Of a DNA stretch of 37,566 nt, positions 1,026 through 24,702 are shown piece by piece; the stretch's first letter is position 1, and every line of letters starts with the position of its first letter. The position numbers and the translations under genes were made by a program. Below the pieces are notes generated by a model. That model was given only the letters and a program-made list of their open reading frames with translations. It was not told the origin of the DNA and ran no database searches. Source of the DNA: Sulfurovum sp. (GTDB taxonomy: Bacteria > Campylobacterota > Campylobacteria > Campylobacterales > Sulfurovaceae). The DNA is taken from the NCBI GenBank assembly GCA_026996325.1, contig JALWLU010000036.1:1-37566 (forward strand), written 5' to 3'.

Positions 1026-1032
1026 CAAGTAA

Positions 1033-1063
1033 ATGAGTAATGAGCAATGAGTAGTGAGCAACC
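1033..1063 (+). repeat. Left terminal inverted repeat of four-helix cassette (heptamer units)
   Basis: Four 7-bp units, ATGAGTA, ATGAGCA, ATGAGTA and GTGAGCA, followed by ACC. The 31 bp match the reverse complement of 1436-1466 at 27 positions. The third unit supplies the ATG of the downstream gene at 1047. The units belong to the RTGARNA heptamer family seen elsewhere in the window. Confidence 0.85.
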
Positions 1064-1430
1064 GAAATTTAATGACCCACTCAGTGAAAAAAGTTTCAAG
1101 TTCTCTTTGCGTATTGTAAAGCTGTTCAAGTATCTGCAAAACGAACATAGAGAATACATTCTTTCCAAACAGCTTTTACGAAGTGGTACGGCGATTGGAG
1201 CACTGGTACGTGAAGCGAAGTATGCCCAGTCCAAAGCGGATTTTTTGCATAAATTGATGATCGCGCTAAAGGAAGCCAACGAAACAAAATATTGGCTTGA
1301 TCTGCTTTACCACTCCGATTATCTGAACGACAAGATGTATCAAAGCATTCTACCAGATATTAACGCACTTTTAAAAATGCTTGTATCCAGCACAAAAACC
1401 ATTAAACAAGGCTCTCAATGTATACAATAA
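1047..1430 (+). CDS. Four-helix-bundle protein of the 23S rRNA intervening-sequence (S23) family
   Basis: A 127-residue protein with the signature of the four-helix-bundle family first seen in 23S rRNA intervening sequences (PF05635/TIGR02436 type). The core runs SKQLLRSGTAIGALVREA, then AQSKADFLHKLMIALKEA and NETKYWLDLLY. It is predicted to be all-helical and cytosolic. The molecular function of the family is not established. The ATG at 1047 lies inside a 7-bp repeat array, and no good Shine-Dalgarno sequence precedes it beyond the purine-rich repeat, so the start is uncertain. The gene sits alone in a cassette bounded by inverted heptamer repeats and separates mraY from murD, whereas known family members often lie inside rRNA genes. 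Family assignment is firm; any role is unknown. Confidence 0.9.
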   Translation: MSSEQPKFNDPLSEKSFKFSLRIVKLFKYLQNEHREYILSKQLLRSGTAIGALVREAKYAQSKADFLHKLMIALKEANETKYWLDLLYHSDYLNDKMYQSILPDINALLKMLVSSTKTIKQGSQCIQ

Positions 1431-1435
1431 CCCTC

Positions 1436-1466
1436 GGTTACTCATTACTCATTACTCACTACTCAT
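1436..1466 (-). repeat. Right terminal inverted repeat of four-helix cassette (heptamer units)
   Basis: GGT followed by TACTCAT, TACTCAT, TACTCAC and TACTCAT, which on the minus strand reads ATGAGTA, GTGAGTA, ATGAGTA, ATGAGTA, ACC. It mirrors 1033-1063 with four mismatches. Together the two repeats delimit 434 bp (1033-1466) between mraY and murD. Confidence 0.85.
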
Positions 1467-1471
1467 TCAAT

Positions 1472-1488
1472 GAAAAACGGAGTTTTTC
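1472..1488 (+). promoter_or_regulatory. Hairpin covering the murD ribosome binding site
   Basis: GAAAAAC, GGA loop, GTTTTTC: a perfect 7-bp stem ending one base before the murD ATG at 1489. The Shine-Dalgarno GGAG (1479-1482) falls in the loop and first stem base, so folding could limit ribosome access. The stem is mostly A-U and therefore weak. Regulation is an inference. Confidence 0.4.
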
Positions 1489-2808
1489 ATGAAACCCTCT
1501 CTCTTTGGTTACGGTCTAACCACCAAAGCCATCGCCAAAAAACTTGGCGGGGGCTGTACTTTTTTTGACGACAACTGTAAGGAGCCCTATACCGATGATA
1601 TGGGCAACCGCATTCTGCCTTCACATCTATTCGACCCTGATGCAAGCGAACTGGAGATCACCACGCCCAGCCTCAAACCCGACCATCCGCTCATCAAAAG
1701 CGCCAAGCACCTGTTGAGTGAATACGACTTTTTCTTAGGGAAAAGGGAAAAGGGAAAAGGGAAAGCATCGCAAAGCGATGCATACCACAACTCTTCACTC
1801 TTCACTCTTCAGAAGGTGAATTGCGAAGCAAGAGAAACTCCCCTGGGGGACTCTTCACTATCCAAACCGTTCACGGTTTGGATAAGCGGTACCAACGGCA
1901 AAACCACCACGACCCAGATGCTTACCCACCTGCTTGAAAAGCGCGGTGCGGTCAGCGGCGGCAACATCGGTACGCCACTGGCGGAGCTCGACCCGGATGC
2001 GAACATCTGGGTGCTGGAGACCAGCTCCTTTACCCTTCATCACACCCGCTACGCGTCACCCGACATCTACCTGCTGCTGCCAATCACCCCCGACCACCTC
2101 GACTGGCATGGCACACCCGAAGCGTACGAAGCGGACAAACTGCGTCCCCTTATGACAATGCGGGAGGGAGAGCTGGCACTGGTACCCAAAGGGCTCAACC
2201 TGCCCGAAACTGACGCCTTTGTCGTAGAGTACGACAGCAACGACTTTCTCTGCGACTACTTCGGTCTTGACGCTTCAAAACTCAACTACCGCGGCGCCTT
2301 TCTGCAAGATGCCCTTCTCTCGCTCGCCATCACCAAGGTACTCTTTGATGAAACCAACTACGACCTGCTTAACCGCTTCAAGCGCGATGCCCACCGACAG
2401 GAGGAGTTCACCGATGCCAAGGGGCGCCTCTGGGTCAACGACTCCAAGGCCACCAACCTCGATGCGGCGATCCAGGCGGTAAAAGGGTATGCCGACCGCC
2501 ACATCCACCTCATCATCGGTGGTGACGACAAAGGCGTCGACCTCACGCCGCTCTTCGAACTCATCGCGCCGATGGAGCTGACGCTCTACAGCATCGGTGC
2601 CAACAGCCAAAAGGTCAAAGCGCTTGCCGACAAGTTCGGCATCGACCTCAAAGAGGCCGGCACGCTTGAGAGTGCCGTAACAATGATAGACAGGGTTCTC
2701 GATGAAAAGAGCGTCGCACTTCTCTCTCCTGCAGCGGCCAGCTTCGACCAGTTCAACTCCTACAAACACCGCGGAGAGACCTTTGTGAACCTTGTCAAAG
2801 CGCTTTAA
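1489..2808 (+). CDS. murD: UDP-N-acetylmuramoylalanine--D-glutamate ligase MurD with an in-frame repeat insertion
   Basis: MurD is the cytosolic ATP-dependent ligase that adds D-glutamate to UDP-MurNAc-L-Ala. The 439 residues include a Campylobacterota-like N-terminus (SLFGYGLTTKAIAK), the ATP-binding loop SGTNGKTTTTQ at residues 133-143, GNIGTPLAELD, LETSSFTLHHT, PITPDHLDWHG and the C-terminal LSPAAASFDQF. Residues about 83-126 do not look like MurD: they are low-complexity, encoded by 7-bp tandem repeats and short palindromes, and lie between SEYDFF and TVWISGTNGKT. That is the linker just before the P-loop, so the enzyme may tolerate the insertion. The frame is intact throughout. The start at 1489 is fixed by GGAG six bases upstream. 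Paired with mraY in the peptidoglycan precursor pathway. Confidence 0.96.
   Translation: MKPSLFGYGLTTKAIAKKLGGGCTFFDDNCKEPYTDDMGNRILPSHLFDPDASELEITTPSLKPDHPLIKSAKHLLSEYDFFLGKREKGKGKASQSDAYHNSSLFTLQKVNCEARETPLGDSSLSKPFTVWISGTNGKTTTTQMLTHLLEKRGAVSGGNIGTPLAELDPDANIWVLETSSFTLHHTRYASPDIYLLLPITPDHLDWHGTPEAYEADKLRPLMTMREGELALVPKGLNLPETDAFVVEYDSNDFLCDYFGLDASKLNYRGAFLQDALLSLAITKVLFDETNYDLLNRFKRDAHRQEEFTDAKGRLWVNDSKATNLDAAIQAVKGYADRHIHLIIGGDDKGVDLTPLFELIAPMELTLYSIGANSQKVKALADKFGIDLKEAGTLESAVTMIDRVLDEKSVALLSPAAASFDQFNSYKHRGETFVNLVKAL
1738..1882 (+). repeat. Repeat-rich in-frame insertion inside murD
   Basis: Four GGGAAAA-type heptamers at 1738-1765, a 7-bp-stem hairpin GCATCGC/GCGATGC at 1765-1781, three TCTTCA(C/G) heptamers at 1792-1812, a small palindrome TTGCGAAGCAA at 1821-1831, another TCTTCAC at 1852-1858, and a 9-bp-stem hairpin TCCAAACCG/CGGTTTGGA at 1861-1882. 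The total keeps the murD frame open. It resembles palindromic elements that insert in frame in some Rickettsia genes, but the sequence family is different as far as I can tell. Confidence 0.75.
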
Positions 2809-7348: not shown

Positions 7349-7648
7349 ATGACGACACGTGACGAGATTCTAACCTACCTTGCAGAGCATAAAGATGTGT
7401 TTGCAAAAGAGTACGGTATTGTCAAAATCGGTCTGTTTGGCTCCTTTGGTAGAGGTGATGCCAACGAGACAAGCGATATCGACCTTCTCATAGAGCTTCA
7501 AAAAGGATTAGAGCATATCTATGAAAAGAAGCGAAACTTCAAAACACGGTTAGAGTCTCATTTCAATCGGCCTGTCGATATTGCACGGGAGAAGTATCTT
7601 ACGCACCGTGCCAGAAATGCGATCAACCAAGACCTCATCTATGTCTAA
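7349..7648 (+). CDS. mntA: MntA-type antitoxin nucleotidyltransferase
   Basis: A 99-residue minimal nucleotidyltransferase with GLFGSFGRGDANETSDIDLL: GSFGRG at residues 31-36, metal ligands D43 and D45, and a third acidic residue D77 in RPVDIA. In characterised MntA-HepT systems this protein is the antitoxin and adds AMP groups to the HepT toxin, blocking its RNase activity. It overlaps the following hepT by 8 bp. The pair has its own promoter and lies between rimO and tilS, genes that are neighbours in Campylobacter, so it looks like an accessory insertion. ATG 7349 has a good ribosome binding site. Confidence 0.88.
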   Translation: MTTRDEILTYLAEHKDVFAKEYGIVKIGLFGSFGRGDANETSDIDLLIELQKGLEHIYEKKRNFKTRLESHFNRPVDIAREKYLTHRARNAINQDLIYV

Positions 7649-7979
7649 AGAGCTTCTTGCACTGCAAACCATCCTTGAGTCGGTCGATACGATCTTTCTC
7701 TACTCAAAAGAGAGTTCCACTGCCGACGATTTTTACCACGACCGAAAAAGTTTCGATGCGTGCATGATCCACTTCATCAACATTGGAGAGATGATCGACA
7801 GGATCAGCATGGATTTTCGCGACTCTCATTCCGAAGTGCCCTGGCAGGAGATCAAAAATTTTCGCAATATCGTTGCCCATAACTATTTCGGTATAGATGC
7901 GGAAGAGATCTGGGATATTATCGAACACCATCTACCTGAGCTGAAAACCAATATTAAATCTTTGATACATACATTATGA
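7641..7979 (+). CDS. hepT: HepT-type toxin (HEPN RNase)
   Basis: A 112-residue all-alpha HEPN protein. The catalytic R-X4-H motif and the modified tyrosine are intact as RNIVAHNY (R75, H80, Y82). HepT cleaves RNA when free; the partner MntA modifies the tyrosine of the RX4HXY motif. The ATG at 7641 overlaps the last 8 bp of mntA, giving tight translational coupling. An upstream in-frame start at 7581 would lie well inside mntA and lacks a ribosome binding site, so it is rejected. The intact catalytic residues suggest a working system. Confidence 0.88.
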   Translation: MSKELLALQTILESVDTIFLYSKESSTADDFYHDRKSFDACMIHFINIGEMIDRISMDFRDSHSEVPWQEIKNFRNIVAHNYFGIDAEEIWDIIEHHLPELKTNIKSLIHTL

Positions 7980-8011
7980 TCTCTATCTCCAACACTAAAA
8001 CAGATAAAGCA

Positions 8012-8017
8012 TATAAT
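8012..8017 (+). promoter_or_regulatory. -10 element immediately before tilS
   Basis: A consensus TATAAT only three bases from the ATG at 8021. If used, transcription would start at or just after that ATG, so translation would begin further in, perhaps at TTG 8042 or TTG 8084. Confidence 0.4.
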
Positions 8018-8020
8018 TAA

Positions 8021-9055
8021 ATGACTGAAAATAGACTCTCGTTGCTCACTGTTCACTGCTCACTGCTCACTAAAAAAAATTTATTGGCTTTTTCTGCTGG
8101 CATTGACTCTTCCGCCCTCTTCTTTCTCCTCATAGAGAGCAACATCAAATTTGACATCGCCATCGTCGATTACGGCGTGCGGGAGCAGAGCAAAGAGGAG
8201 GTATTGCACGCACAATCTCTGGCAAAAGAGTACAACCTAAAATGTCATACAGCCAACGCACCGCAATTCACGTCACACTTTGAAGAAAATGCCAGAAAAT
8301 TCCGCTACGACTTCTTTGAGTCGCTCATTCATACGTACGGCTATGAGAACCTGCTTACTGCCCATCAGCTCAACGACAGGCTGGAGTGGATGCTGATGCG
8401 GCTTGCCAAGGGTGCGGGAGTGGTGGAGATGACGGGGATGGAGGCTGTAACACCAAAAGAGAACTATACCCTGCTACGCCCCCTGCTTGGCTACAGCAAG
8501 GCAGAGCTGCTGGCCTACCTTGAAGCGAACAACCACCCCTATTTTGTCGATGAGAGCAATAGTGACGAACACTTTGAGCGCAACCGCTTCCGAAAACACT
8601 TCTCCGACCCGCTGATTGACAAATACACAGAGGGGATCAAACGCAGTTTCGACTATCTTGAAGCGGACAGAGAAGAACTTCTTTCAGGCTATGAGATTGT
8701 TTTTGAACACAAGGATCTCCGTCTGCTCAAACTATACAGCCCCGCAGCGAAAACAAGAGCCGTCGATCGCACACTCAAAGCGCTTGGCTACCTCCTCTCC
8801 GCCTCACAGCGTCAGGAGATAGCACAAAGTAACAGCCTTGTGGTTGGACGCAAATGGGCCATTGCACATACCGGCACATACGTTTTCATTTCCCCCTACC
8901 GTACTGCAAATATGCCAAAGGCTTTCAAAGAGAAGTGCAGGGTTCTGAACATACCCTCCAAGATACGCCCCTACCTTTTTGAAGAGGGGATCGACCTGGA
9001 AACAATACGCAGACACGTATTGTTTGGTAAAGAGAGAATAGTGAATAGTGAATAG
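8021..9055 (+). CDS. tilS: tRNA(Ile)-lysidine synthetase TilS
   Basis: TilS converts C34 of the CAU-anticodon tRNA-Ile to lysidine, using ATP, so that it reads AUA. The PP-loop is LLAFSAGIDSSALFF (SAGIDS at residues 25-30, with Ala in place of the usual first Gly), followed by the VDYGVREQS and LLTAHQLNDRLEWMLMRL motifs typical of the family. The frame gives 344 residues. The first 17 or so residues are encoded by four 7-bp repeats (8044-8071) and are unlike TilS N-termini; the last residues and stop codon are made by three GAATAGT repeats (9036-9056). The start is therefore unsure: ATG 8021 lacks a ribosome binding site and abuts a TATAAT. Function is secure. Confidence 0.93.
   Translation: MTENRLSLLTVHCSLLTKKNLLAFSAGIDSSALFFLLIESNIKFDIAIVDYGVREQSKEEVLHAQSLAKEYNLKCHTANAPQFTSHFEENARKFRYDFFESLIHTYGYENLLTAHQLNDRLEWMLMRLAKGAGVVEMTGMEAVTPKENYTLLRPLLGYSKAELLAYLEANNHPYFVDESNSDEHFERNRFRKHFSDPLIDKYTEGIKRSFDYLEADREELLSGYEIVFEHKDLRLLKLYSPAAKTRAVDRTLKALGYLLSASQRQEIAQSNSLVVGRKWAIAHTGTYVFISPYRTANMPKAFKEKCRVLNIPSKIRPYLFEEGIDLETIRRHVLFGKERIVNSE
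8044..8071 (-). repeat. Four heptamer repeats at the tilS 5' end
   Basis: GCTCACT, GTTCACT, GCTCACT, GCTCACT on the plus strand, which read as RTGARNA-family units (GTGAGCA-type) on the minus strand. They are translated within tilS as SLLTVHCSLLT. Confidence 0.85.
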
Positions 9056-9056
9056 T
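9036..9056 (+). repeat. Three GAATAGT heptamers forming the tilS 3' end
   Basis: Three perfect copies of GAATAGT. The tilS stop codon (9053-9055) lies in the third, so the C-terminal residues IVNSE derive from repeat sequence. Confidence 0.85.
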
Positions 9057-9176
9057 GTCGGTATGCATTGCGTCGCAATACTTTTGTTGATGTAGGGTGC
9101 GTAGCCACGCATCTTTTTGAAGTGTTTGTGAAAAATCGCTATTCCGCTGCTCTGCGTCTCTACGGTGCGAGATTTC

Positions 9177-9281: not shown

Positions 9282-10121
9282 TCACTCCTCCTTAACAAGC
9301 GGGTGCGCCTTCATATACTCCTGCATCTTCTTGACGCTGCCAAGCTTGGTGTAGACCTGTGTCGTCGCCATCGTTTCATGGCCGAGCAGTTCGCTGACAT
9401 CTGCGATGCGTGCGCCGTGGTTGAGCAGGTGGGTGGCAAAGGAGTGGCGCAGCTGGTGGGGGGTGGCCTTGATGCCCGAAGCCTTGAAGAGTTTGGTCAG
9501 TTTGTAGCGAAGCTGCGCGGCGTTGAGCGGCGCGTTTCCCTTTTCAAAGAGATACTTTTTGGGCTGCGCCTGTGCCTGATGCACCTCCAGAAGTTCCCTG
9601 ATGGCAGGCAGCAGCGGCAGTTCACGCACCTTGTTGCCCTTTCCGTGCACCTGCACCCATTCGGACTTGATATCCTCAAGCTTCAGCGAAGCCAGCTCGG
9701 AGATACGCAGTCCAAGCCCGTAAAGCATCGAGACCAGCAGCTTCTCCTCCACAGTCGCCTTCTCCAGCACCTCATCGATGTAAACCTCTTCAATGGGTTT
9801 TGGAAGGCTTTGCGGTACCTTGATGGATTCATCCCCAATCATTCTGATGTTCAACTGCCGCTGATCCTCAAGATATTTGACAAAGGAGCGCACCGCAGAG
9901 AGTTTCTTGACAATGGTCTTTTTGTTGTTCTTGACGATCTTGAAGCGAAACGGGGTCAGGTCGAGCACCCATACCCCATCCTCTTCATAGAAGTGTGCCG
10001 AGGCAGCCATCTGGGAGAGCGCGATCTCATAGGTCTCCACCGTCACCTCCGTATACCCCCGCACACTCAACAGATAGTCCAGAAAATCCTCAATCCATCC
10101 CCCTAACTCTTCACTCTTCAC
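9282..10121 (-). CDS. Xer-type tyrosine recombinase
   Basis: A 279-residue tyrosine recombinase with a SAM-like N-terminal domain and a complete catalytic set: R139 (GLGLRISEL), K161 (GKGNKVRELPL), H222 and R225 (HQLRHSFATH), H248 (LLGHETMATT) and nucleophile Y257 (QVYTKLG). XerH of Helicobacter and Campylobacter is some 350-360 residues, so this is closer in size to XerC/XerD; I leave the symbol open. It could resolve chromosome dimers or act on islands in trans. The apparent start is a GTG (10119-10121) inside four 7-bp repeats, giving MKSEEL; a start within the repeats elsewhere is possible. The upstream DUF374 gene ends inside the same repeat array, so the two are probably co-transcribed. 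Confidence 0.9.
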   Translation of the reverse strand: MKSEELGGWIEDFLDYLLSVRGYTEVTVETYEIALSQMAASAHFYEEDGVWVLDLTPFRFKIVKNNKKTIVKKLSAVRSFVKYLEDQRQLNIRMIGDESIKVPQSLPKPIEEVYIDEVLEKATVEEKLLVSMLYGLGLRISELASLKLEDIKSEWVQVHGKGNKVRELPLLPAIRELLEVHQAQAQPKKYLFEKGNAPLNAAQLRYKLTKLFKASGIKATPHQLRHSFATHLLNHGARIADVSELLGHETMATTQVYTKLGSVKKMQEYMKAHPLVKEE

Positions 10122-10135
10122 TCTTCACTCTTCAC
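10108..10135 (-). repeat. Four GTGAAGA heptamers at the recombinase start
   Basis: Four perfect TCTTCAC units on the plus strand (GTGAAGA-type on the coding strand). They fill the junction between the DUF374 stop (10135-10137) and the recombinase start, and supply both the GTG start and purine-rich GAAGAG stretches resembling Shine-Dalgarno sequences. Confidence 0.85.
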
Positions 10136-10755
10136 TAAACAATCGTGTGTTCAAGCATCTTCTCTTTCAAAAACACTTTCGCCTCTTCCAGCGTCATCCC
10201 CTCAAGAGAGAGACTCTGAATGTAGAAGTCGATCTTCCCAAAGGGCTTTGGAATGACAAACCTGTCCCAGCTGCCAAGCTGCCAGTAGGCGGATGCCTGG
10301 TAGTTCATTACGAAGATAGGCAGTTTGCTTTTAAGCGCAATGCCGATGGCACCGTCACTCATGCTGTGTCTGGGACCTCTTGGTCCATCAGGAGTGATGA
10401 GTACCTCTTCACCGTCGCGAATACGCTTGAACGCCTGAAGAAGCACCTGTCTTGCGCCCTTTTTGCTCGAGCCCCGAAGTGCGTCGATGCGCAGCAGCTT
10501 CAGCGTGCCGGCAATAAGAGAGCCGTCAAAGTGTGCGGAGATGATGGCCGATGCCTTGTGTCGGGGATGGATTTTCCGGTACGCCTGCGGGCTCATCAGC
10601 AGTTCGGCATGCCAGCAGACACAGACATGCTGACGCTCGTCGATGGGGGTGATGAAGTGAAAGGTCTTGCGGTTGGTGTACCACAGCAGACGCATAATCA
10701 GATAAAAAAGCGGCGGCAGCACCACCGCTCCGAGCTTTCGTGTAAATGCTTTCAT
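10135..10755 (-). CDS. DUF374-family lysophospholipid acyltransferase
   Basis: A 206-residue membrane-associated protein with one N-terminal hydrophobic helix (VVLPPLFYLIMRLLW), then motifs of the DUF374 acyltransferases: CWHAELL, ISAHFDGSLIAGTL, ALRGSSKKGARQ, ITPDGPRGPRH and PIFVMNYQA. The family is related to lysophospholipid and lauroyl acyltransferases; the acceptor is not known from sequence. It lies 2 bp after miaB, and the order DUF374-miaB-HP0268 homologue matches what I recall for H. pylori (HP0270-HP0268). Probably co-transcribed with miaB. Confidence 0.88.
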   Translation of the reverse strand: MKAFTRKLGAVVLPPLFYLIMRLLWYTNRKTFHFITPIDERQHVCVCWHAELLMSPQAYRKIHPRHKASAIISAHFDGSLIAGTLKLLRIDALRGSSKKGARQVLLQAFKRIRDGEEVLITPDGPRGPRHSMSDGAIGIALKSKLPIFVMNYQASAYWQLGSWDRFVIPKPFGKIDFYIQSLSLEGMTLEEAKVFLKEKMLEHTIV

Positions 10756-23249: not shown

Positions 23250-24125
23250 CTACATCACCTCCAGTATAATCAAAATCAGAAACACAAACCCAAGATAGCC
23301 GTTGACGGTAAAAAAGGCCCTGTCTATCTTTGTAAAGTCCTTGTTGACAAGGTAGTGCTCATACGTCAGCATTAGTGCCGCAAACACCACCGCCGTCTTC
23401 GCCCAGAGACCAAGCCCGGCGTCAAGCACAAAGAGCCACCAGAGCAACACTGTCAGCAGATGAAACACCCGGGCGATACGCATCGTATTTGCTGCACCGA
23501 AACGCGAAGGGATGGAGTGGAGGTTGTGCGCCTTGTCAAACTCCATATCCTGCAGCGAATAGAGCAAGTCGAAGCCCGCTACCCAGAACATCACTCCCGC
23601 TGCCAGCAGTACCGACCACCATGGAATGGTACCCAGCACGGCAATCGCACCGGCTATGGGAGCAAGCCCGAGACTCACTCCCAAGATGAGATGTGCCAGT
23701 GCGGAAAAACGCTTGAAAAGGGTGTAGGCACCCAGAACCAGCAGAATAGGCACGGAGAGTTTGAATGCAAGGTCGTTGATAAAATAGGCCACCATGACAA
23801 AGGCTGCACCGTTGAGAATGATGAAACCGATCATCTGTGCAGAGGTTACCCTGCCGTCAACGGAGGGACGGTGCTTCGTTCTTGGGTTGAGCCTGTCAAT
23901 ATCCCTGTCAAGGTAGCGGTTGACACCCATAGCGAAGTTTCTTGCACTGACCGCCGCAAGGGTACCAAGCAGCAAGAGCCTCCAGCCAAACCACCCGTCA
24001 GCCGCCACCAGCATCGCAATGAAGATGAACGGCAGCGAAAAGACTGAATGTTGAAACATCACCAGCTCTGAAAAGTCGTTCAGCTTTTTAAGCAATCCGC
24101 CCTTTTTTATCTCTTCACTCTTCAC
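23250..24125 (-). CDS. UbiA-family prenyltransferase, probably menaquinone (MqnP-type)
   Basis: An integral membrane prenyltransferase of 291 residues with about eight helices. Both Asp-rich motifs are present: NRYLDRDID (about 69-77) and YSLQDMEFD (about 188-196). Menaquinone is the only quinone of most Campylobacterota, made by the futalosine route, in which MqnP attaches the side chain; that is the most likely role. 4-hydroxybenzoate octaprenyltransferase (UbiA) is the alternative. The apparent start is a GTG within a 7-bp repeat array and gives MKSEE, the same N-terminus as the recombinase at 9282-10121. It follows pssA by 16 bp. Confidence 0.88.
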   Translation of the reverse strand: MKSEEIKKGGLLKKLNDFSELVMFQHSVFSLPFIFIAMLVAADGWFGWRLLLLGTLAAVSARNFAMGVNRYLDRDIDRLNPRTKHRPSVDGRVTSAQMIGFIILNGAAFVMVAYFINDLAFKLSVPILLVLGAYTLFKRFSALAHLILGVSLGLAPIAGAIAVLGTIPWWSVLLAAGVMFWVAGFDLLYSLQDMEFDKAHNLHSIPSRFGAANTMRIARVFHLLTVLLWWLFVLDAGLGLWAKTAVVFAALMLTYEHYLVNKDFTKIDRAFFTVNGYLGFVFLILIILEVM

Positions 24126-24139
24126 GCTTCACCCTTCAC
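24112..24139 (-). repeat. Four heptamers between pssA and the UbiA-family gene
   Basis: TCTTCAC, TCTTCAC, GCTTCAC, CCTTCAC on the plus strand (GTGAAGN units on the coding strand). They fill the whole space between the two genes and supply the GTG start at 24125. Confidence 0.8.
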
Positions 24140-24141
24140 TC

Positions 24142-24702
24142 TCATGGGTGCGGTATTTTCAGTTTGGAGTTCAGTGACCATGCAACTGCCAGCACCAGCC
24201 CTGCAACCACATAACCGTTTGCCAACACACCATAGGCTGTCAACAGATAGACAAGCCAGAGCAGTATGGCACCAAGCGGTGTAGGAACGCCTTCGAAGTA
24301 CTTGGCCACTTCACCCGCATCGACTTTGAGGTTGAACTCAACAAGGCGTCTGAGCCCGGAGATGATGTACCAGATGAAGACAACCCCAAGCACTACCTCT
24401 GCAGTAAAAGAGAGTTGCATATAGTGTTTGACAGCATAAAAGAGCAGGAATGCCGGCATGACGACAAAGGAGAGAAAGTCTGCAAAACTGTCAAGCTGGA
24501 TACCAAACTCCGTAGAGAGATTGTACTTCCGTGCCACCTTGCCGTCAGCAATATCAAGTGCACCGGCAATCCAGGCAAGCACGATCGCTGCAAAGAAGTT
24601 GTTCTGCTGTATCAGATACATCGCAGCTACACCACAGGCGATGTTGCCAAAGGTGATGATATTGGCGATATTGAAACGGTTGTTCTTGTCAAACAGCCCC
24701 AT
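24142..24702 (-). CDS. pssA: CDP-diacylglycerol--serine O-phosphatidyltransferase PssA
   Basis: A membrane CDP-alcohol phosphotransferase of 186 residues that makes phosphatidylserine, the precursor of phosphatidylethanolamine. The family signature D-G-x2-A-R-x8-G-x3-D-x3-D is intact at residues 53-75 (DGKVAR ... GIQLDSFAD), in a bundle of six hydrophobic helices. The short N-terminus NRFNIANIITFGNIACG is typical of PssA rather than PgsA. ATG 24702 is chosen since GGGAG lies just before it. The assignment to serine rather than glycerol phosphate is by overall similarity. Confidence 0.87.
   Translation of the reverse strand: MGLFDKNNRFNIANIITFGNIACGVAAMYLIQQNNFFAAIVLAWIAGALDIADGKVARKYNLSTEFGIQLDSFADFLSFVVMPAFLLFYAVKHYMQLSFTAEVVLGVVFIWYIISGLRRLVEFNLKVDAGEVAKYFEGVPTPLGAILLWLVYLLTAYGVLANGYVVAGLVLAVAWSLNSKLKIPHP

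Follow-up and report, generated by a model that had tools for sequence, protein, structure and literature searches.

The closest described systems to the locus studied here are the intervening sequences (IVSs) of 23S rRNA. In Coxiella, the S23 open reading frame of the IVS is preceded by three tandem GACAGAT heptamers, and 28-bp terminal inverted repeats form a stem that is cut by RNase III (PMC4990558). Older proposals, reviewed in the same paper, regard IVSs as mobile or as remnants of transposition (PMC4990558). S23 genes are also found in cas loci, where they have been listed among CRISPR-Cas-associated functions (PMC3936711). At the protein level, the S23 family member Xcc0516 is reported to form a pentameric ring, and the related Avd is an accessory protein of diversity-generating retroelements (PMC10053308). 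Tandem heptamers have been described in their own right. An excerpt of PMC4679880 covers the STRR arrays of cyanobacteria and the TAACTGA arrays of Beggiatoaceae, and an excerpt of PMC2700814 covers four-heptamer elements in Geobacter metallireducens.

The window, which is the whole stretch of DNA that was analysed, comprises 37,566 nucleotides from Sulfurovum sp. and contains an S23 gene between mraY and murD (Table 1). Profile matches assign the gene to PF05635 (E 3.5e-26) and TIGR02436 (E 2.7e-29), and mraY, S23 and murD are all on one strand. A preliminary description of this DNA had bounded the gene by inverted repeats of 31 bp. The inverted repeat was confirmed, with arms of 34 nt rather than 31, and each arm has a period of 7. 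When the upstream flank is compared with the reverse complement of the downstream flank, the locus has an arm score of 22, where a score of at least 14 was used as the threshold. The boundaries of the whole cassette are based on cross-site comparisons, in which the ends of such cassettes coincide with the arms. Within these boundaries, S23 is the only open reading frame of note, and no transposase reading frame was found. The predicted RNA fold of the cassette pairs the two arms and has an energy of -118.2 kcal/mol (z -3.95 versus its own shuffles). In the hairpin directly outside the right arm, the 3′ half is native and is present in the empty site of the relative G034, and the 5′ half is its inverted copy. 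An Rfam search of the window returned two tRNAs only. The source genome contains 10 S23 genes.

Table 1. Positions of the S23 cassette and of related elements in the window.
Feature	Position	Strand	Remarks
Whole cassette, arm to arm	1032..1467	+	between mraY (end 1025) and murD (start 1489)
Left arm	1032..1065	+	four-plus AATGAGT heptamers; overlaps S23 start codon; pairs with right arm in RNA fold
S23 / 23S_rRNA_IVP four-helix-bundle gene	1047..1430	+	127 aa
Right arm	1434..1467	-	inverted left-arm copy, 30/34 matching
Hairpin ATGAAAAAC-GGA-GTTTTTCAT	1470..1490	+	directly outside right arm; murD ribosome-binding GGA in loop
In-frame insert in murD	1734..1811	+	AGGGAAA array, hairpin GCATCGCAAAGCGATGC, right arm of GAGTGAA-type cassette
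Cassette remnant, rimO-tilS junction	7985..8073	+	likely S23 tail (TCCAACACTAAAACAGATAAA) and right arm CTCACTGTTCACTGCTCACTGCTCACT
Half element at tilS end	9029..9080	+	left arm (GAATAGT), GGTATGC, hairpin
Solo ACTCTTC array	10100..10141	+	start of xerH-like gene
Solo CTCTTCA array	24110..24142	+	
Expanded AATGAGT array after miaA	25673..25787	+	15.6 copies; gene absent, inverted partner absent

Comparison with relatives shows that the window cassette is an insertion at the mraY-murD junction. The two genes, which the preliminary description took to be normally adjacent, lie no more than 21 nt apart in 15 relatives with an empty site. The junction is occupied by an AATGAGT-type cassette in G000, the genome of the window, and in G035, and by a GTGAAGA-type cassette in G013, G015 and G019. 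Scarred sites are found as well, with two arms kept and S23 mostly deleted in G029, arms without the gene in G009, and one arm each in G017 and G020. The flanks of the empty site in G034 and the occupied site in G029 are near-identical, and a 6-bp GATAAA sequence is a candidate for a target duplication in this single case; no other clear target duplication was found, and none is evident in the within-genome copies L306 and L322. The ispG and rimO-tilS junctions are likewise empty, occupied or scarred among relatives. At rimO-tilS, whole cassettes are present in seven relatives, and arms have been turned into the last RimO codons and the first TilS codons. The empty site that the preliminary description had proposed to look for at mraY-murD therefore exists, and it has counterparts at the other two junctions. 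Neither of the outcomes that the same description had named against itself, namely the gene without repeats in all relatives or S23 genes elsewhere that lack heptamers, was found.

The arms and the S23 gene form one unit, which is present or absent at each junction and has related copies at different junctions. In the S23 tree, the cassettes that G013, G015 and G019 carry at mraY-murD group with those of the ispG site, apart from the G000 and G035 cassettes. When relatives from the two sites are aligned, similarity begins with the left arm's first base and stops where the right arm ends; outside these points, the flanks are site-specific. The within-genome pairs L306/L322 and L319/L321, from two unrelated genomes, also have arm-to-arm homology and unrelated flanks. 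Because copies from one lineage at different sites are homologous arm to arm, the arms and gene constitute a mobile unit. Together with the empty sites, the within-genome copies support the earlier suggestion of a compact mobile unit with S23 as its sole gene. Only two within-genome copy pairs were seen, both of them diverged (76-88% identity), and cassettes at the same site are mostly old and vertically kept. A separate arrangement was observed in a SAR324 genome (G073), where two adjoining S23 copies (L348 and L353) are 92% identical over 554 nt.

S23 genes with such arms are found genus-wide and in more than 10 phyla. In the combined genus and order set, 44 of 78 S23 loci have an arm score of at least 14, and 76% of the loci in this set lie above the 99th percentile of shuffles, compared with 8% when arms are swapped between loci. 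A broad set, which covers the NIAEG-type S23 subfamily only (the S23 protein of the window is a member of the other one), was drawn from Bacteroidota, Bacillota, Chloroflexota, Desulfobacterota, Patescibacteria, Atribacterota, Planctomycetota, Cyanobacteriota, Pseudomonadota and others. In this set, 44/80 loci (55%) reach the threshold versus 4/320 swaps. Fifteen further genomes from the broad set, taken whole and holding both subfamilies, gave 57/68 loci versus 9/304 within-genome swaps, a rate that is somewhat favoured because these genomes were chosen mostly for one strong-armed locus. Random positions never reached this score (0/360, comprising 0/120 in the window and 0/240 at other loci). 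The arms have a median length of 28 nt, identity at lag 7 of 0.68-0.82 versus 0.23-0.34 at almost all of the remaining lags (up to 13), and a C content of only 4-10% in the left arm. True arm pairs have a duplex energy of -30.1 kcal/mol versus -7.3 kcal/mol for swapped arms, and the arm-arm stem is present in 54 of 55 folds of genus cassettes. A plasmid search for S23 relatives gave 25 records, and plasmids of Nostoc and Dolichospermum carry perfect 36- and 31-bp arms with AATTCGT units. No S23 relatives were found in phage records or on viral contigs, the latter searched for close relatives only. The earlier expectation that heptamers flank S23 genes more often than random genes is borne out for inverted arrays, which are far commoner at S23 genes than at random positions, but the RTGARNA motif in which it was framed would miss most of them.

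The cassettes also have a pronounced orientation, with 113 fully sense and 3 fully antisense, and S23 has the same direction as the gene that follows it in 93-96% of loci versus 72% for control neighbours. An exception to the sense rule is a plasmid of Anabaena cylindrica (L285), in which the S23 cassette lies between cas2 and cas1 and is antisense to both. With dN/dS values of 0 to 0.18, including several pairs saturated at synonymous sites, S23 is, as estimated from sequence divergence, under purifying selection. The AF2 model of the window S23 protein has a pLDDT of 95.5, and Foldseek matched it to 2rld (E 4.8e-10, 54% identity) and 2gsc (E 1.6e-4), each of which contains five chains. Weaker matches were obtained to Avd, including 4dwl (TM 0.70/0.82, but E 0.07) and 8ube. 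Given the accessory role of Avd in diversity-generating retroelements, the modelled fold makes a nucleic-acid-binding role for S23 plausible.

The heptamer sequence changes freely, while the arms within a cassette stay complementary. Among 51 clean-armed genus elements there are 35 distinct heptamers, and the left and right consensus heptamers are identical in 30 elements and one position apart in 16. Between cassettes at the same site, 99 heptamer positions show the same change in both arms versus 54 with a change in one arm (32 left only, 22 right only), which is a trend rather than a test, as these are non-independent pairwise counts on related sequences; 19 further positions changed otherwise. 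The ATGAGTA-type heptamer of the preliminary description is therefore not common to the cassettes, as each S23 cassette has its own heptamer. A fixed heptamer (RTGARNA) recognised by S23 was ruled out by this diversity and by change of the heptamer within one lineage. In one mraY-murD cassette (L095, G019), the left half is GTGAAGA-type and the right half GTGAGGA-type, so that the arms differ, and by eye this cassette appears to be a recombinant or mosaic.

As the cassettes do not share an end sequence, recognition presumably depends on a shape, of which the stem is the simplest candidate. We consider it likely that the cassette is an IVS-type stem element residing outside rRNA and recognised by structure rather than by sequence; its putative continuity with the rRNA IVSs draws on a published paper and not on a shared tree. 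Under this proposal, the element consists of one S23 gene within two inverted arms of approximately four heptamers (about 28-34 bp). The arms would pair into a stem of approximately 30 bp, formed either by the transcript or by single-stranded DNA, and the mobility and maintenance machinery would recognise this stem and not its sequence. RNase III may cut the stem in the transcript, as in rRNA IVSs, which would allow the insert to be tolerated in operons. S23, a probably pentamer-forming relative of the nucleic-acid-binding protein Avd, may in turn bind its own stem and help the element persist or move, and the enzyme that inserts the DNA is probably a host function. No RVT_1 match was found in the near-complete carriers G013, G015, G019, G023, G029, G033 and G043, nor in G000, an 85% complete genome, and no Y1 transposase was found in the S23 carriers G019, G033 and G043. 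A reverse transcriptase in trans and a Y1 transposase in trans were both rejected, as each is missing from several carrier genomes, and neither can be required in present-day carriers. A wider claim is that S23 is the sole gene of a cross-phylum mobile class with stem-recognised, rewritable ends, and that it acts as a mobility factor without a transposase, recombinase, nuclease or reverse transcriptase of its own; we regard this as doubtful.

Matched arms could also be produced by template switching of the DNA polymerase, with one arm serving as the template for its partner, together with slippage that keeps each array uniform. S23 would then be an ordinary gene at junctions rich in repeats; the stem would play no part at the RNA level and would not be under selection. 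Hairpins are known to be both generated and preserved by template switching, which during replication can hold inverted arms matched without selection (PMC8794818). In keeping with this, short hairpins outside the arms of many genus cassettes have a host-gene end or start as one half and its inverted copy as the other, as in TCGAATTTTC-GTA-GAAAATTCGA at ispG sites and GCAAAAAGCGT-TAA-ACGCTTTTTGC at L046. Such hairpins reach a stem score of at least 7 in 25% of genus cassettes versus about 1% of shuffles, and the signal is weak in the broad set (8%). The arms of L061 are each uniform yet different (TGAAAAA versus TGAGAAA), which indicates that arrays homogenise on their own. Arm mismatches in the sense RNA comprise 24 G.U versus 63 A.C-type in the genus and 28 versus 44 in the broad set, non-independent counts in which the A.C-type excess is due in part to arms that differ throughout at a single position of the heptamer. 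G.U wobble, considered as a sign of RNA selection, thus gave the opposite outcome, and the lack of a sense-strand G.U excess fits template switching and speaks against strong selection on a sense RNA stem. The genus mismatches are also lopsided, with A or T in the left arm where the right arm retains the partner of G. Template switching nevertheless leaves unexplained why S23 genes in unrelated phyla have arms and random positions do not, as well as the sense bias and the joint movement of arms and gene. As a full account of the cassettes we consider it unlikely, though it can operate together with the IVS-type explanation.

The terminal inverted repeats, precise ends and empty sites are also features of a non-autonomous, MITE-like DNA transposon, which would be mobilised by a transposase supplied in trans, S23 being a passenger or a regulator. 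This is very unlikely, given that the ends vary between cassettes so that no single transposase with sequence specificity could act on all of them, that the Y1 transposase, the transposase family covered by the search, is absent from the three carriers above, that no consistent target duplication was found, and that a DNA transposon would not be expected to insert with such a strong sense bias. The least probable origin is a retroelement in which a reverse transcriptase acting in trans copies the RNA and S23 serves as its Avd-like partner. This would fit the Avd fold of S23 and the sense-only insertion, which is compatible with an RNA intermediate, but it is at odds with the undetected RVT_1 in seven near-complete carriers and in G000.

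In addition to the complete cassette, the window contains gene-free arrays, half elements and remnants (Table 1). The in-frame murD insert, with its array, hairpin and right arm, looks like a half element, and its hairpin and arm recur at the murD start in G008. We take this insert to be reminiscent of the Rickettsia palindromic elements. At the rimO-tilS remnant, the right arm CTCACTGTTCACTGCTCACTGCTCACT now encodes the TilS start, and the order of elements at the tilS end matches the left ends of ispG-site cassettes. The heptamer was confirmed to be present without the gene after miaA, as had been reported earlier, and its 15.6 copies are perfect. Long perfect heptamer arrays were observed both here and in the G000 contigs C24, C40 and C130. 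Because several G000 contigs start inside such arrays, heptamer arrays probably break the assembly of this genome. Beside the S23 remnant at rimO-tilS, the window also has a nucleotidyltransferase-like and HEPN-like gene pair (7349-7979), by eye a probable MNT/HEPN toxin-antitoxin, and a similar pair lies at rimO-tilS in G014 (L157), where arms are absent.

S23 is a very common 'four helix bundle protein' gene in many thousands of bacterial genomes, and its cassettes are linked here to the insertions that split some ribosomal RNAs. If the IVS-type stem element is the correct explanation, such genes are accounted for as cargo of IVS-type elements that spread via ordinary operons, beyond rRNA, and the 30-year-old question of IVS origin and movement becomes testable in culturable bacteria with many copies. 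Ends that change in sequence yet remain complementary would be an uncommon way for a mobile element to be recognised. The cassettes are also a possible source for part of the unexplained bacterial heptamer arrays, and an S23 gene found within an operon, for instance a cas operon, may be an insertion rather than a partner. The preliminary description held the mobility to be unreported. This stands in that no account of S23 outside rRNA as heptamer-armed mobile cassettes was found in the open-access literature, although an earlier description elsewhere is possible, and does not stand for the rRNA IVS versions, whose mobility has already been proposed (PMC4990558).

Among known systems, insertion sequences and transposons differ from the cassettes, which have no transposase gene and no conserved terminal sequence. 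Avd (4DWL, 8UBE; PMC10053308) shares the four-helix-bundle fold, whereas diversity-generating retroelements differ in that no reverse transcriptase or template and variable repeats were seen beside the cassettes. The heptanucleotide arrays of cyanobacteria, Beggiatoaceae and Geobacter are similar in having tandem heptamers, often in approximately four copies, between and inside genes, and the gene-free arrays of the window may be their counterpart; in the excerpts of PMC4679880 and PMC2700814, however, they are described as direct repeats or regulatory elements and are not connected with S23. The S23 genes reported from cas loci (PMC3936711) represent the same family inside operons, as in the cas2-cas1 locus of Anabaena cylindrica, and insertion of a mobile cassette explains their presence equally well. 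The 23S rRNA IVSs of Coxiella, Leptospira and others resemble the cassettes in their sense S23 open reading frame, terminal inverted-repeat stem and heptamers before the reading frame (PMC4990558). The window cassette likewise has an S23 protein, a long terminal stem and a reading frame sense to the host transcript, but we do not file it as an rRNA IVS because it lies between mraY and murD and not in a 23S rRNA helix. Six conserved rRNA probes detected no rRNA signatures in the fetched S23 loci. The cassettes described here further differ from rRNA IVSs in lying between protein genes, in being present many times per genome, each with its own heptamer, and in carrying an S23 gene that appears to be under purifying selection, whereas the S23 gene of rRNA IVSs is decaying.
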